From Bacilli bacterium (lineage in GTDB: Bacteria; Bacillota_I; Bacilli_A; RF39; UBA660): a stretch of DNA of 64,000 nt. The position numbers were made by a program, and so were the translations under genes. Position 1 is the stretch's first letter. Each line of letters starts with the position of its first letter. Below the pieces are notes generated by a model. It had not been told where the DNA came from, ran no database searches, and saw only the letters and a list, made by a program, of their open reading frames with translations. The stretch spans positions 327,013-391,012 of the forward strand of contig JAFQCG010000001.1 in assembly GCA_017416535.1 (NCBI GenBank). The letters run 5' to 3'. This document shows, piece by piece, positions 52,788 through 58,390 of this stretch.

Positions 52788-53540
52788 ATGTTAGAAATTA
52801 ATCATTTATATGCTAAAGTTAAAGATAAAGATGTTGAAATTTTAAAAGATTTTTCTTTAAAAATAAATTCTTCTGAGGTACATGCTATTATGGGACCTAA
52901 CGGTACTGGTAAAAGTACTTTAGCTAAAGTTTTAATGGGACATTATAGTTATGAAGTTACTTCTGGTGTTATGAGTTTTTTAGGAGAAGATATTAGTACA
53001 TTAGAGGTAAATGATAGGGCTAAAAGGGGACTTTTTTTATGTATGCAAGATCCTACTGTTATTGAAGGGGTTTCTAATAGTGAGTTTTTAAGAACTGCTA
53101 AGGGTGAAATTACTGGAGAAAAAGTAAATCTTTATTCATTTATTAAAGACATGGATAGTGCGATGAAATGTGTTAATTTAGATTCTAGTATGTTACATAG
53201 ATCTTTAAATCAAGGATTTAGTGGTGGAGAAAAGAAGAAAAATGAAGTTTTACAATTAAAAGTATTAAAACCTAAGTTTATTATTTTAGATGAATTAGAT
53301 TCTGGACTTGATGTTGATAGTTTAAGAATAGTTTGTGAAAATATTAATAGTTATGTAGAAGAAAATCCAGAAACTAGTATTTTGATAATTACTCATTATC
53401 CAAGAATTTTAGAATATATTAAACCAGATTATGTTCATGTAATGGTTGATGGTAAAATTCAAAAGACTGGTAATATTGATTTAGCATTTACAGTAGAAAA
53501 AGATGGTTATGTTGGGATAGGATCTGGTGTAGATGGCTAA
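52788..53540 (+). CDS. sufC: Fe-S assembly ATPase SufC
   Basis: 250 residues from ATG 52788 (GGAGATGA upstream). ABC ATPase with Walker A GPNGTGKST, Q-loop MQDPTVIEGVS, signature FSGGEKKKNEVLQ and Walker B FIILDELDSGLD. The GGEKKRNE-like signature marks SufC. It drives conformational change of the SufB-SufD scaffold. First gene of the operon; overlaps sufD by 8 nt. Confidence 0.97.
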   Translation: MLEINHLYAKVKDKDVEILKDFSLKINSSEVHAIMGPNGTGKSTLAKVLMGHYSYEVTSGVMSFLGEDISTLEVNDRAKRGLFLCMQDPTVIEGVSNSEFLRTAKGEITGEKVNLYSFIKDMDSAMKCVNLDSSMLHRSLNQGFSGGEKKKNEVLQLKVLKPKFIILDELDSGLDVDSLRIVCENINSYVEENPETSILIITHYPRILEYIKPDYVHVMVDGKIQKTGNIDLAFTVEKDGYVGIGSGVDG

Positions 53541-54111
53541 AATTATTTATGTAGTTGATGATAACGAAAATAAAAATTATAAATATAATATAAAGGAAGA
53601 TACTATTATTTATCATTTCTCAATTAATAGTAGTAGTGATGTAGAAATTAATTTAGATAAAGAAGATGTTTCTTTATATTATTACTATAATAATATTAAT
53701 TATGATGATAATAAGTTTAATATTAAAGTTAATCATAATAAAAACAATACTCATAGTGAACTTTTTAACCATGGAGTAAATGTTTTTTGTAATAAATTAA
53801 TGTATTATGTAGATGGCGTTGTTCCTAAGAGTAGTAGTAAATGTATTTGTAATCAAGATAATCAAATTATTAATATGGATAATGGTAAAAGTACTATTTG
53901 TCCGAATTTATTAATAGATAATTATGATGTTGATAGTAATCATTCTGCTTATATTGGTAAATTCAAAGATGAAGTGATGTTTTATTTGATGAGTAGAGGT
54001 ATAAGTAGAGAAGTTGCTTATAGATTATTATTAAATGGCTTTTTAATTAATAGTGATTGTATTGAGAAAGATAAAATAAAGTTATTTTTAGATGAAATAG
54101 AAAAGATTTAG
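53533..54111 (+). CDS. sufD: Minimal SufD scaffold protein
   Basis: 192 residues against ~430 in Bacillus. The C-terminal SufB/SufD block is intact: SNHSAYIGKFKDEVMFYLMSRGISREVAYRLLLNGFL. Before it, only a short, divergent Asn/Tyr-rich stretch replaces the long N-terminal helices and most of the beta-helix. The reading frame shows no break, and overlap with sufC and neat spacing to sufS argue for a working short protein. It presumably caps SufB and binds SufC. Confidence 0.85.
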   Translation: MAKIIYVVDDNENKNYKYNIKEDTIIYHFSINSSSDVEINLDKEDVSLYYYYNNINYDDNKFNIKVNHNKNNTHSELFNHGVNVFCNKLMYYVDGVVPKSSSKCICNQDNQIINMDNGKSTICPNLLIDNYDVDSNHSAYIGKFKDEVMFYLMSRGISREVAYRLLLNGFLINSDCIEKDKIKLFLDEIEKI

Positions 54112-54122
54112 GAGGTGAAGAT

Positions 54123-55316
54123 ATGCATAGAGAAGATTTTACAATGTTAGATAGTGATATTGTATATTTTGATAATGGTGCAACTACTTTAAAACCTAAA
54201 TGTGTTGTTGATAGTATGGTTAATTATTATACTAGGCATACATCTAATATTCATAGGGGAGACTATGATGCTGCTATAAAGACTAATAAACTTTATGATG
54301 ATACAAGAAAAGTTGTAGCTAAATTTATTAATTCAGATAGTGATGAAGTAATTTTTACTAGTGGTACAACTATGTCTATAAATATGGTTGTATTTGGATA
54401 TATGGAGAAGGTATTGAATACTGGAGATGAGGTTTTACTTACAAAAAGTGAACATGCATCAAATGTTTTACCTTGGATTAAATTAGCTGAGAAAAAGGGT
54501 ATTGTTATTAAATATATGGATCTTGATGAAGATTATAGCTTGAAATTAGAATCAGTTAAGAAAAGTATTACAGATAAAACTAAAGTTATTTCTATAGCTC
54601 ATGTTACTAATGTAATTGGTGATGTTAGAGATATTGAAGGTATTGGTAAAATTTGTCGTGATAATAGTATTTTATTTTGTGTTGATGGTGCACAAAGTGT
54701 ACCTCATATGAAAGTTGACTTTAAAAATAGTAATATAGATTTTTTAAGTTTTTCAGGACATAAGATGTGTGGACCTACTGGAGTAGGATGTTTAATTCTT
54801 AAAAAGAAATATTTAGATATTATGGAACCATTATGTTATGGTGGTGGTATGAATAATTATTTTGAAGGAGATAATTCTTACGAATTAAAGAAGGGTGTTA
54901 CTAAATTTGAAGCAGGAACACCTCCTATTGCAGAGGTTATTGGACTTCGAGAAGCAATCTTATATTTAGATAAAATTGGAATTGAAAATATTCATAAGCA
55001 TGAAATAGAATTAAAAAAATATTTAGTAAAAAGATTAAAGGATGTTCCTAATATTAGAATTTATAATGAAAAGTCTGATAGTGGAATTTTAGCGTTTAAT
55101 ATTGAAGCAGTTTTTGCTCAAGATAGTTCTATTTATTTAAATAATTATAATATTTATGTTAGAGCAGGAAATCATTGTACTAAGATGTTAAAAGATGAAA
55201 TTGGTGTTAAGAATACTGTTCGTGTAAGTATGTATTTATATAATACAAAAGAAGATGTAGATAAATTAGTAGATGTGTTAAAGAAAAGTGAAGATATATT
55301 TAAGATAGTTATATAA
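54123..55316 (+). CDS. sufS: Cysteine desulfurase SufS
   Basis: 397 residues. PLP-dependent fold with SEHASNVLPW, CVDGAQSVPHMKVDF and SFSGHKMCGPTGVG (the Lys-bearing loop). The catalytic cysteine is in VRAGNHCTKML, the class II (SufS) loop. It removes sulfur from cysteine and hands it to SufU. GGAGGTGAAG precedes the ATG. It may also supply ThiI. Confidence 0.96.
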   Translation: MHREDFTMLDSDIVYFDNGATTLKPKCVVDSMVNYYTRHTSNIHRGDYDAAIKTNKLYDDTRKVVAKFINSDSDEVIFTSGTTMSINMVVFGYMEKVLNTGDEVLLTKSEHASNVLPWIKLAEKKGIVIKYMDLDEDYSLKLESVKKSITDKTKVISIAHVTNVIGDVRDIEGIGKICRDNSILFCVDGAQSVPHMKVDFKNSNIDFLSFSGHKMCGPTGVGCLILKKKYLDIMEPLCYGGGMNNYFEGDNSYELKKGVTKFEAGTPPIAEVIGLREAILYLDKIGIENIHKHEIELKKYLVKRLKDVPNIRIYNEKSDSGILAFNIEAVFAQDSSIYLNNYNIYVRAGNHCTKMLKDEIGVKNTVRVSMYLYNTKEDVDKLVDVLKKSEDIFKIVI

Positions 55317-55325
55317 GGAGGATAT

Positions 55326-55754
55326 ATGGATAATAATTTACGTAGAGAAATAATCCTTGATAATTATCAAGATCCTATGAATAGAGGATTAATAGAAGAT
55401 GATAGTTATTTAAAAGTTAATACTAATAGTGAAAGTTGTATTGATAATCTTGATTTTATGATGAAGATAGAAGATGGAATTGTTAAAGATATTAGATTTG
55501 ATGGAGAAGCTTGTGCTATTAGTACATCGGCATCTTCTATAATGATAAGAAGTTTAATTGGAAAGAAAAAAGAAGAAGTAGAAGTAATATTAGATAATTA
55601 TCGTAAAATGATTAATGAAGAAGAATATGATAGCGAAGTACTTGGTGAGTTAAATGTGTATGATGAAATTTGTAAACAACCAAATAGAAAGAATTGTGCA
55701 TTACTTCCAAGTGTTGCAATAAAAGAAATGCTGGAGGAGAAAGACAATGATTAA
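55326..55754 (+). CDS. sufU: SufU, zinc-dependent sulfur-transfer partner of SufS
   Basis: 142 residues. The Zn ligands Cys-x-Asp (SESCIDNL), GEACAIS and a C-terminal Cys (NRKNCALLP) match SufU of Firmicutes. It takes persulfide from SufS by zinc-ligand swapping. AGGAGG is 6-7 nt before the ATG. It overlaps the next ORF by 8 nt. Confidence 0.94.
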   Translation: MDNNLRREIILDNYQDPMNRGLIEDDSYLKVNTNSESCIDNLDFMMKIEDGIVKDIRFDGEACAISTSASSIMIRSLIGKKKEEVEVILDNYRKMINEEEYDSEVLGELNVYDEICKQPNRKNCALLPSVAIKEMLEEKDND

Positions 55755-56262
55755 AGTAAAAGATATAAAATTAGCGGATGTTAGATATTTTGATAGAGAA
55801 CATAATGGATTAGAATTTACTGATGCTGTATCGAGAGTAATTTTATTAAATAGAGGAGATACATATATTAATTTATTAAATCCAGGTGAGATTGCTCCGA
55901 TATATAGAAGAATACCAAATACAACAAATCCATTTAGTACAGAAGATTATTTTGGTACTAAGATTGAACATGTATGTGGTGAGGAGAGAACAGGAGAGGC
56001 ATGGTTACTTGCAGATGTTGACTTAAAAAGTGTCTTTCATAAAGATGAAGTTACTATGGATGAAGTTGAAGCTTATGTTTTAAGAAGTTGTTATTATTAT
56101 CATAATAGAGCTGAATTAATTGAAAGAAAATTAAATCAAGGAAAGTTAAGTACTCGTGATATTATGCTTTTGGTTGATACAAAGGTAAAGGATGCGCATT
56201 GTAAGGTAGAAATGGATAAATTCTTTGCTGATAGAGGAATACAAAAAGTTTATTCAAAATAG
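55747..56262 (+). CDS. Unknown protein inside the suf operon
   Basis: 171 residues, soluble. Blocks seen: DAVSRVILLNRGDTYINLLNPGE, NPFSTEDYFGTKIEHVCGEERTGEAWLLADVD and ERKLNQGKLSTRDIMLLVDTKVKDAHCK. Three cysteines and several His/Glu/Asp could bind metal, but no known Fe-S carrier motif (no CGC or CxxC) is present. It is translationally coupled to sufU and 13 nt before sufB, so it is made with the Fe-S machinery. Not part of the standard sufCDSUB set. Confidence 0.8.
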   Translation: MIKVKDIKLADVRYFDREHNGLEFTDAVSRVILLNRGDTYINLLNPGEIAPIYRRIPNTTNPFSTEDYFGTKIEHVCGEERTGEAWLLADVDLKSVFHKDEVTMDEVEAYVLRSCYYYHNRAELIERKLNQGKLSTRDIMLLVDTKVKDAHCKVEMDKFFADRGIQKVYSK

Positions 56263-56275
56263 AAATGGTGATTAA

Positions 56276-57589
56276 ATGGAAATAATAGGATTAAATGAGG
56301 AGAAAATTAAGGCGATATCTAATAAGAAGCAAGAGGCTGATTGGGTAAGAGACTATAGACTTAAAAGTTATAAGAACTTTAATGAAATAGATATGCCTAA
56401 ATTTGGTCCTCGTGTTGACCTTGATTTTTCAAAAATTGTTTATTATAAATCAAATGAAAAAGATGATGCTATTAAGAATGATTGGAATAGTGTTTTAAAA
56501 CCAGTTGTTGATGAATTAGATGAACTTGGTGTTCTTGAAAGTGAAAAGCATTTAGGTGGTATGGGCGTTCAATATGAAAGTGAAGTAATTTACCATAGTA
56601 TGCTTGAAGAACTTGAAAAGAAAAAAGTTATATTTACTTCTATTGAAGTTGCTATGAGAGAATACCCAGAACTTGTGGAAAAATATTTTGGAAAGATTGT
56701 TACTAATGATGAAAATAAGTTTGCTGCTTTAAATGGTGCCGTATTTAGTGGTGGTAGTTTTATCTACGTACCTAAGAATACTAAATTAGATAGACCACTT
56801 CAAAGTTATTTTAGGATTAATAGTAAGAATATGGGACAATTTGAAAGAACATTAATTATTGTTGATGATAATAGTGATTTACATTATATAGAAGGTTGTA
56901 CAGCACCTACTTATAGTGAGTCTTCACTTCATGCCGCAGTAGTTGAGATTTATGTTGGTAAGAATAGTAAATGTCGTTATTCAACTATTCAAAACTGGGC
57001 TAATAATGTTTATAATCTTGTTACTAAAAGAGCTTTAGTTGATGATAATGGTACTATGGAATGGATTGATGGTAATATAGGAAGTAAAGTTACTATGAAA
57101 TATCCTTGTTGTATTTTAAAAGGAGATAATTCTAGTGGTACTTGCATTACTATTTCCGTTGCATCAAGTGGTCAAGAACAAGATAGTGGTGCTAGAATGA
57201 TCCATTTAGGAAAAAATACTAAGAGTAATATAATTTCTAAGAGTATTGCAAGAAATGGTGGTAATGCTACTTATAGAGGTAAAGTATATATTGATACTAA
57301 TGCAGTTAATAGTATTGCAAACGTAAAATGTGATACGTTAATTTTAGATGAGAAATCTAAGAGTGATACAATTCCAATTAACTCTTGTTATAACATAAGT
57401 AGTAATATTGAGCATGAAGCCACTGTTTCTAAAATAAGTGAAGATAACTTGTTCTATTTAATGAGTAGAGGTATATCTCGTGAACGTGCGATGGAGTTAA
57501 TTGTACTTGGCTTTTTAGAAAAGTTTAGAGAAGAACTTCCAATGGAATATGCAGTTGAGTTAAATCAATTAATTAAAAGAAATTTATAA
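56276..57589 (+). CDS. sufB: Fe-S assembly scaffold SufB
   Basis: 437 residues, slightly under the usual ~465. VYYKSNEK, YHSMLEELEKKKVIFTSIEVAMREYPELV, AALNGAVFSGGSFIYVPKN, EGCTAP and the C-terminal NIEHEATVSKISEDNLFYLMSRGISRERAMELIVLGFLE are the family blocks. It is the main scaffold on which clusters form with SufC and SufD. ATGGTGATTAA precedes the start. Last gene of the operon. Confidence 0.97.
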   Translation: MEIIGLNEEKIKAISNKKQEADWVRDYRLKSYKNFNEIDMPKFGPRVDLDFSKIVYYKSNEKDDAIKNDWNSVLKPVVDELDELGVLESEKHLGGMGVQYESEVIYHSMLEELEKKKVIFTSIEVAMREYPELVEKYFGKIVTNDENKFAALNGAVFSGGSFIYVPKNTKLDRPLQSYFRINSKNMGQFERTLIIVDDNSDLHYIEGCTAPTYSESSLHAAVVEIYVGKNSKCRYSTIQNWANNVYNLVTKRALVDDNGTMEWIDGNIGSKVTMKYPCCILKGDNSSGTCITISVASSGQEQDSGARMIHLGKNTKSNIISKSIARNGGNATYRGKVYIDTNAVNSIANVKCDTLILDEKSKSDTIPINSCYNISSNIEHEATVSKISEDNLFYLMSRGISRERAMELIVLGFLEKFREELPMEYAVELNQLIKRNL

Positions 57590-57627: not shown

Positions 57628-57664
57628 AAAATGAAATTTTCAGTTAGAAGATTTCATTTTTTTT
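57628..57664 (+). terminator. Terminator of the suf operon
   Basis: 10-bp perfect stem AAAATGAAAT / ATTTCATTTT with a 13-nt loop, then T's. Confidence 0.85.
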
Positions 57665-57720
57665 AATTTGTTTTGCATTTGAATTTTATAAAAGTGTGAT
57701 TTGATAAGATTGTTTTATTA

Positions 57721-57758
57721 AAGTATTATACCTCTCGAAAGGAGGTGATAATATACTT
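57721..57758 (+). promoter_or_regulatory. Long hairpin covering the ssb SD and start codon
   Basis: Nearly palindromic 38 nt. CCTCT (57731-57735) pairs with GGAGG (57741-57745) across a CGAAA loop; A57730-T57746 extends it. TATTAT (57724-57729) then pairs with ATAATA (57748-57753) past a one-base bulge. An alternative outer pairing AAGTAT / ATACTT reaches codon 2. The SD AGGAGG lies wholly inside. Confidence 0.75.
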
Positions 57759-58094
57759 AATCAGATTGTCTTAGTTGGAAGACTTACTAGAAATATTACA
57801 GTAAATAAGTCGGATAAAGGAGTTAAAGTTGCGACTATTTCACTTGCAATTCCTAGAAGTTTTAAAAATATGGAAGGAGGTTATGATACAGATTTTATAG
57901 ATTGTGTTGCATTTGATAATATTGCGGAAAATACAAAAGAATTTTGTGAGAAAGGGGATATTGTTGGAGTTAAAGGAAGAGTGCAATCAAGAACTGTAGA
58001 AAAGGATGGAAAGACAGAATATTTAATGGAAATTATTGCGGAAAAGATTACATTTTTATCGAATAAGAAAGGAGATGAAAAAGCAGATGAATAG
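57753..58094 (+). CDS. ssb: Short single-stranded DNA-binding protein with apparent ATA start
   Basis: 113 residues if it starts at ATA 57753, reading (M)LNQIVLVGRLTRN, the exact SSB opening. AGGAGG (57740-57745) is 7 nt before ATA, ideal spacing. The frame has no ATG, GTG or TTG between the upstream stop at 57705 and the internal ATG at 57870, which would delete a third of the OB fold. Later blocks: DFIDCVAFDNIAENTKEFCEKGDIVGVKGRVQSR. The length equals Bacillus SsbB, which also lacks the acidic C-terminal tail. A G-to-A sequencing difference at 57755 is the main alternative. Confidence 0.85.
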   Translation: MLNQIVLVGRLTRNITVNKSDKGVKVATISLAIPRSFKNMEGGYDTDFIDCVAFDNIAENTKEFCEKGDIVGVKGRVQSRTVEKDGKTEYLMEIIAEKITFLSNKKGDEKADE

Positions 58095-58105
58095 TCTGCT
58101 TTTTA
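58079..58105 (+). terminator. Terminator of ssb
   Basis: 9-bp perfect stem AAAAGCAGA / TCTGCTTTT overlapping the stop codon. Confidence 0.85.
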
Positions 58106-58138: not shown

Positions 58139-58390
58139 ATGGAAATTTTATTTTTTATTTTATTCGCGCTTTTTTGTTCATTAATTGAATTTTTAATTCC
58201 TAGAAGATGTGAAAAATGTGGTAAGGTAAAATTGGGTGTAAAGAAGAGGGATTATTTTATTAAAAAATTGGATGGAACACTTTCTAATAGAATTAGAGGG
58301 GATAAATTATGTGGTAAGTGTGCCGGTGGTGGTGAGCGTGGAATTTGTGTTCATGAAACTTGGGATGGTGATATTTTTGAGGATAATTAA
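58139..58390 (+). CDS. Small membrane-anchored zinc-ribbon-like protein
   Basis: 83 residues. One N-terminal helix (ILFFILFALFCSLIEFLI), then RRCEKCGK ... KLCGKCAGGGERGIC: two CxxC pairs that likely bind one zinc on the cytoplasmic or outer face. GAAGAGGTG precedes the ATG. It overlaps the GNAT gene by 14 nt. Function unknown. Confidence 0.75.
   Translation: MEILFFILFALFCSLIEFLIPRRCEKCGKVKLGVKKRDYFIKKLDGTLSNRIRGDKLCGKCAGGGERGICVHETWDGDIFEDN

Follow-up and report, generated by a model that had tools for sequence, protein, structure and literature searches.

Translation starts at AUA, AUU or AUC (AUH) are, to our knowledge, established for only a small number of bacterial genes. In Staphylococcus aureus, the genes infC (AUA), cvfC1 (AUU) and ccpN (AUA) have an AUH start and an extended Shine-Dalgarno (SD) sequence in common (PMC13009471). 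Reporters for cvfC1, ccpN and the AUA site of citZ reached about 10% of the AUG output in poor medium, and the ccpN reporter up to 30% in rich medium (PMC13009471). The non-canonical start (GTC) of Streptomyces sigR is repressed by IF3 (PMC5472188). In phage T4, the hairpin that sequesters the SD of gene e carries a promoter in its 5' strand; transcripts from upstream are silenced about 100-fold, and those from the late promoter are translated (PMC3014915).

The window, a stretch of 64,000 nt from the MAG of an uncultured gut bacterium of the Bacilli (assembly of 1.5 Mb in 35 contigs), harbors the gene ssbB for a 113-aa SSB paralogue at 57753-58094 of the forward strand, on which all features described below lie unless stated otherwise. 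After an in-frame TAA at 57705-57707 the ssbB frame has no stop from 57708 on. The sequence AGGAGG (57740-57745) is followed 7 nt on by ATA (57753-57755), after which the frame reads LNQIVLVGR. As claimed in the original prediction, there is no standard start codon before an internal ATG at 57870, which is the first ATG, GTG or TTG in the frame and would leave a product of 74 aa. A GTG at 57745 was rejected as an alternative start; it lies in another frame, which stops after nine codons. The ATA aligns with the ATG of relatives, and its position after AGGAGG and its conservation in congeners also supported the claim that it is the actual start. An AUH codon as the sole possible and conserved start is likewise a feature of IF3-controlled AUH genes. 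We concluded that a translation start of ssbB at AUA is well supported by the comparison of sequences.

Residues 2-102 of the 113 residues of SsbB matched the OB-fold SSB family (Pfam PF00436, 3.3e-23), TIGR00621 scored above its cut-off, and the nearest solved chain was SsbB of Bacillus subtilis (3vdy, 1.2e-24). The protein ends in KKGDEKADE and has no acidic tail of the DDELPF type. Such a tail is present in SsbA, the other SSB of the genome (161 aa, C-terminus DDELPF, ATG start). The predicted SsbB-type product was thus supported by its length and by its C-terminus. A short paralogue beside a full-length SsbA is also found in B. subtilis (3vdy) and in pneumococcus (PMC3128108), but ssbB of the window differs from these genes in its AUA start, and its expression in competence is putative. 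We found comEC in 10 of 10 genomes tested, and SsbB may therefore take part in DNA uptake.

That the window comes from a MAG favors a sequencing or assembly error at position 57755, the true codon being ATG. The original prediction had called for a re-check of this base in reads; here, relatives speak against an error: ATA is present at the same site in all three species of the genus (the window genome G000, G001 and G002), which were assembled separately, and ATT, ATC or ATA was found in five further genera. Among the three congeners, 34-36 of the 113 ssbB codons differ synonymously and only 4-9 non-synonymously, which indicates that ssbB is under purifying selection and that the three species are well separated. 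Since the same codon is kept in three species despite this synonymous divergence, we regard ATA as genuine and the probability of an error as negligible. A block of 46 nt (57718-57763), which comprises a palindrome, a -10-like hexamer, the SD and the ATA, does not differ among the three species, in contrast to the flanks and the synonymous sites.

Searches for ssbB in 372 genomes of the family revealed an AUH start in 12 genomes of six genera, with ATA in g1 and g16, ATT in g5, g9, g163 and g103, and ATC in g103. This count was read by hand and leaves out rows with ATH just before ATG and the ambiguous G124 (TTG). The matching pattern search for AUG, GUG or UUG starts yielded 234 genomes of the family. 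Since most relatives start at AUG, AUH is dispensable for ssbB function. When 84,980 species genomes were scanned, 18 matches emerged, comprising 17 AUH ssbB genes (12 ATT, 2 ATC, 3 ATA) and one chance match in Desulfuromonadales; the scan required GGAGG and a protein beginning L/F-N-x, so that AUH cases of other form are missed. All 17 genes were located on contigs of gut-Bacilli-type MAGs, which are labeled Bacilli, Erysipelotrichaceae, Firmicutes, Tenericutes or plain bacterium. Several of the records with relatives stem from the guts of mammals. On a tree of 75 ssbB proteins, AUG and AUH must have replaced each other at least 7 times, and well-supported branches force 2 of these changes. 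Such switches thus occurred repeatedly in the family, likely in both directions. A literature search on AUH starts in ssb found no paper in the collection covered.

The SD of ssbB is extended: GAAAGGAGGTGAT (57737-57749) is a 13-nt complement of the usual 16S tail, against which it was scored, and the spacing from GGAG to the start is 8 nt. The host 16S 3' tail was looked for, and its end is absent from these MAGs. Within the family, the SD match was longer in AUH than in AUG leaders (10.8 vs 9.1 nt, p 0.001, kinship ignored), and the GGAG-to-start spacing was 8-9 nt in 18 of 18 AUH leaders and mostly 7 nt in AUG leaders; both contrasts depend on kinship, with 2 independent pairs on well-supported branches. 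Like infC, ssbB has an AUH codon behind a strong SD, but infC is regulated by its own product, whereas for ssbB only the role of a downstream target is expected. With ccpN and cvfC1 of S. aureus it shares the conserved AUH and extended SD in Bacilli (PMC13009471). The three are different genes, however, and the starts of ccpN and cvfC1 were established by profiling and reporters and that of ssbB by comparison (PMC13009471); in addition, ssbB often switches between AUG and AUH. Streptomyces sigR also has a non-canonical start, is conditionally needed and is repressed by IF3, but its codon is GTC instead of AUH, and it is an unrelated gene of another phylum (PMC5472188). Altogether, ssbB is in keeping with the known class, exemplified by infC, ccpN and cvfC1, in which an extended SD precedes a start that IF3 discriminates against.

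The promoter scan and the spacing in the family point to a -35-like hexamer TTGATA at 57701-57706, followed after 17 nt by the -10-like hexamer TATTAT (57724-57729). In 51 of 76 family leaders a TTG is located exactly 17 nt upstream of the -10-like hexamer, which mostly precedes GAAAGGAGG by 6-8 nt. Shuffled sequences contained a -10-like hexamer in 52% of cases, and the general promoter scan detected as many promoters in shuffles. Since single -10 matches are cheap in A+T-rich DNA, the fixed 17-nt spacing is the better argument. The -35 region of the 76 family ssbB loci mostly reads TTTG, and the ACA part is poorly represented; a TTTG-type -35 at fixed distance may reflect a sigma-A promoter too weak to work unaided, or the use of a different sigma factor. 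No ssbB promoter motif common to a set of competence genes was seen in the 1.1 Mb scanned. Judged by the distance from the -10 box, the gene's own transcription should start near 57737, giving a leader of about 16 nt (57737-57752).

The end of sufB is located 163 nt upstream of ssbB on the same strand. The gap contains an A+T-rich hairpin with a T run behind it (57628-57668), an inverted repeat kept in the three species, which is too G+C-poor for the terminator scan and may be a weak terminator. Upstream of ssbB the window encodes sufS, a sufU-like gene and sufB (53533-57589), and in several genera ssbB likewise follows sufB, separated from it by about 150-180 nt. An ORF of 171 aa among the suf genes (55747-56262) had no Pfam match. 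A terminator-like hairpin with a T run spans the ssbB stop codon (58078-58104); it was flagged on the reverse strand, and the forward strand also ends in TTTTT. Directly after ssbB follows an 83-aa ORF (58139-58390) whose product has CxxC pairs and is hydrophobic at its N-terminus; it had no Pfam match.

The original prediction had further placed the SD within a near-palindrome. This structure was confirmed, with the arms TTAAAGTATTATACCTC (57718-57734) and GAGGTGATAATATACTTAA (57742-57760). In predicted folds of RNA starting at 57690 or 57722 the SD was almost fully paired, with an unpaired probability of GGAGG near 0, which rose to 0.3-0.9 in RNA starting at 57737. The fold of 57710-57775 was mildly better than that of shuffles (z -1.68; 13 of 200 equally good). 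By consensus and conservation, TATTAT lies within the 5' arm, and transcripts from the ssbB promoter should therefore lack that arm, so that the short mRNA of ssbB itself probably does not contain the gating hairpin. This resembles T4 gene e, where the promoter is likewise part of the 5' strand of the hairpin, so that the hairpin is confined to longer transcripts from upstream; unlike gene e, ssbB has no late sigma factor and has an AUA start, and its silencing is predicted by analogy (PMC3014915).

The position of the -10 box is difficult to reconcile with the earlier claim that the hairpin and the AUA jointly gate the main ssbB mRNA and are opened by SSB or by unwinding. The invariance of the palindrome in the genus and its pairing with the SD in long RNA would fit such a gate. 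However, most AUH relatives do not have the hairpin, stems that cover the SD are about as common across the family as in shuffles (with a slight excess of long ones), and the hairpin recurs in a locus of another genus (L027) that has an ATG start and sufB upstream as in the window. A role as companion of AUH starts was not supported across the family by these distributions. Relatives with an ATG and no hairpin, which the original prediction had named as evidence against itself, were found in the family but not within the genus. The sequence gave no evidence for repression of translation through binding of SSB to its own leader, and we consider a joint gate on the main mRNA improbable. We judge it equally improbable that the palindrome is a DNA operator over the -10 box and transcript start that is bound by a repressor. 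The 46 invariant nt are centered near the expected transcript start, in favor of an operator, but the -10 and SD sequences partly account for the arms, and there is no second complete copy of the palindrome in 1.1 Mb of the genome, so that no regulon was seen. Since sufB ends so close to ssbB, with only an A+T-rich hairpin in between, silencing of read-through transcripts appears to be the most economical reading of the palindrome.

We also compared the start codons of other genes. No AUH start was seen for the housekeeping ssbA in 367 genomes. The search gave three pattern matches, of which L289 has an ATG two codons upstream and L287 and L288 are accessory ssb genes. L287, encoding 148 aa in another genome of the family, has a plausible ATT start behind GGAGG; the AUH start of L288 is uncertain. 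For infC, six genomes were read: the start is ATC in G000, G001, G015, G175 and G167 and ATA in G278. This supported the comparison with infC drawn in the original prediction, as the window genome itself has ATC at the start of infC. At the infC loci L175-L183 (L176 is G000:C4:667760-668263), GGAGGTG precedes the ATC or ATA start. An ATG overlaps the infC SD, which invites misannotation and is the reason why a filter for canonical starts misses infC. Among 550 orthologous pairs of G000 and G015, a member of a related genus, 21 entries had no canonical start ahead of the conserved part; this comparison took in about three quarters of the genome. Inspection by hand attributed most of the 21 to alignment overhangs or antisense frames and one to prfB with its frameshift, and left a SpoIVFB-like gene and a membrane protein as uncertain cases. 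ssbB is the clearest true non-canonical start in G000. The SpoIVFB-like gene (G000 C13 minus strand, C13_-_206791) and its G015 counterpart both have no canonical start before the conserved part, and it is possible that this is a further AUH-start gene or a translationally coupled one.

Taken together, the start position, its conservation and recurrence, the promoter geometry, the extended SD and the conservation of the palindrome can be read at the level of sequence; IF3 dependence, low output, the transcript start and read-through silencing we infer. We consider it probable that ssbB is transcribed as a single gene, from a promoter of its own and with a short SD leader ahead of an IF3-discriminated AUA, and that the hairpin hides the SD in read-through mRNA only. 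The leader of about 16 nt would consist almost entirely of the extended SD, and the strong helix between SD and anti-SD would place the weak AUA in the P site. Since IF3 discriminates against AUH, a low output of ssbB is expected, perhaps around a tenth of that of AUG as measured for the similar S. aureus genes, and it would increase under a shortage of IF3 relative to 30S subunits. In the genus, the longer mRNA reading through from the suf operon would be the only one in which the hairpin hides the SD, and such mRNA would make no SsbB.

A weak start could also be tolerated instead of selected: a strong SD, which all AUH cases have, would suffice for initiation, and in A+T-rich genomes mutation would convert AUG to AUH and back without any regulatory significance. 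AUH is indeed in the minority, with 12 genomes against 234, and the likely switching in both directions is in line with this. Nevertheless, AUH lasts across several species in g1, g5, g9 and g103, where AUU, AUC and AUA are exchanged for each other without return to AUG, the housekeeping ssbA has no AUH, and genes without a canonical start are otherwise few in the genome. We therefore regard mere tolerance as a less likely, though serious, alternative to a weak AUH start that probably keeps SsbB scarce and tied to IF3. Only tentatively do we suggest that AUH was repeatedly taken up for ssbB as a control coupling an SSB for DNA uptake or recombination to IF3 and the state of the ribosome, with the nested promoter and hairpin blocking read-through synthesis in some genera.

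For the annotation of these genomes the result implies that gene finders restricted to ATG, GTG and TTG truncate or miss ssbB. ssbB is a new gene for a known start type, and its repeated evolutionary history makes an experiment worthwhile: the AUH start is gene-specific, conserved and repeatedly switched in one family, and thus provides a natural series for testing the purpose of such starts. For the organism itself, our analysis suggests that ssbB should be kept low and responsive to IF3.
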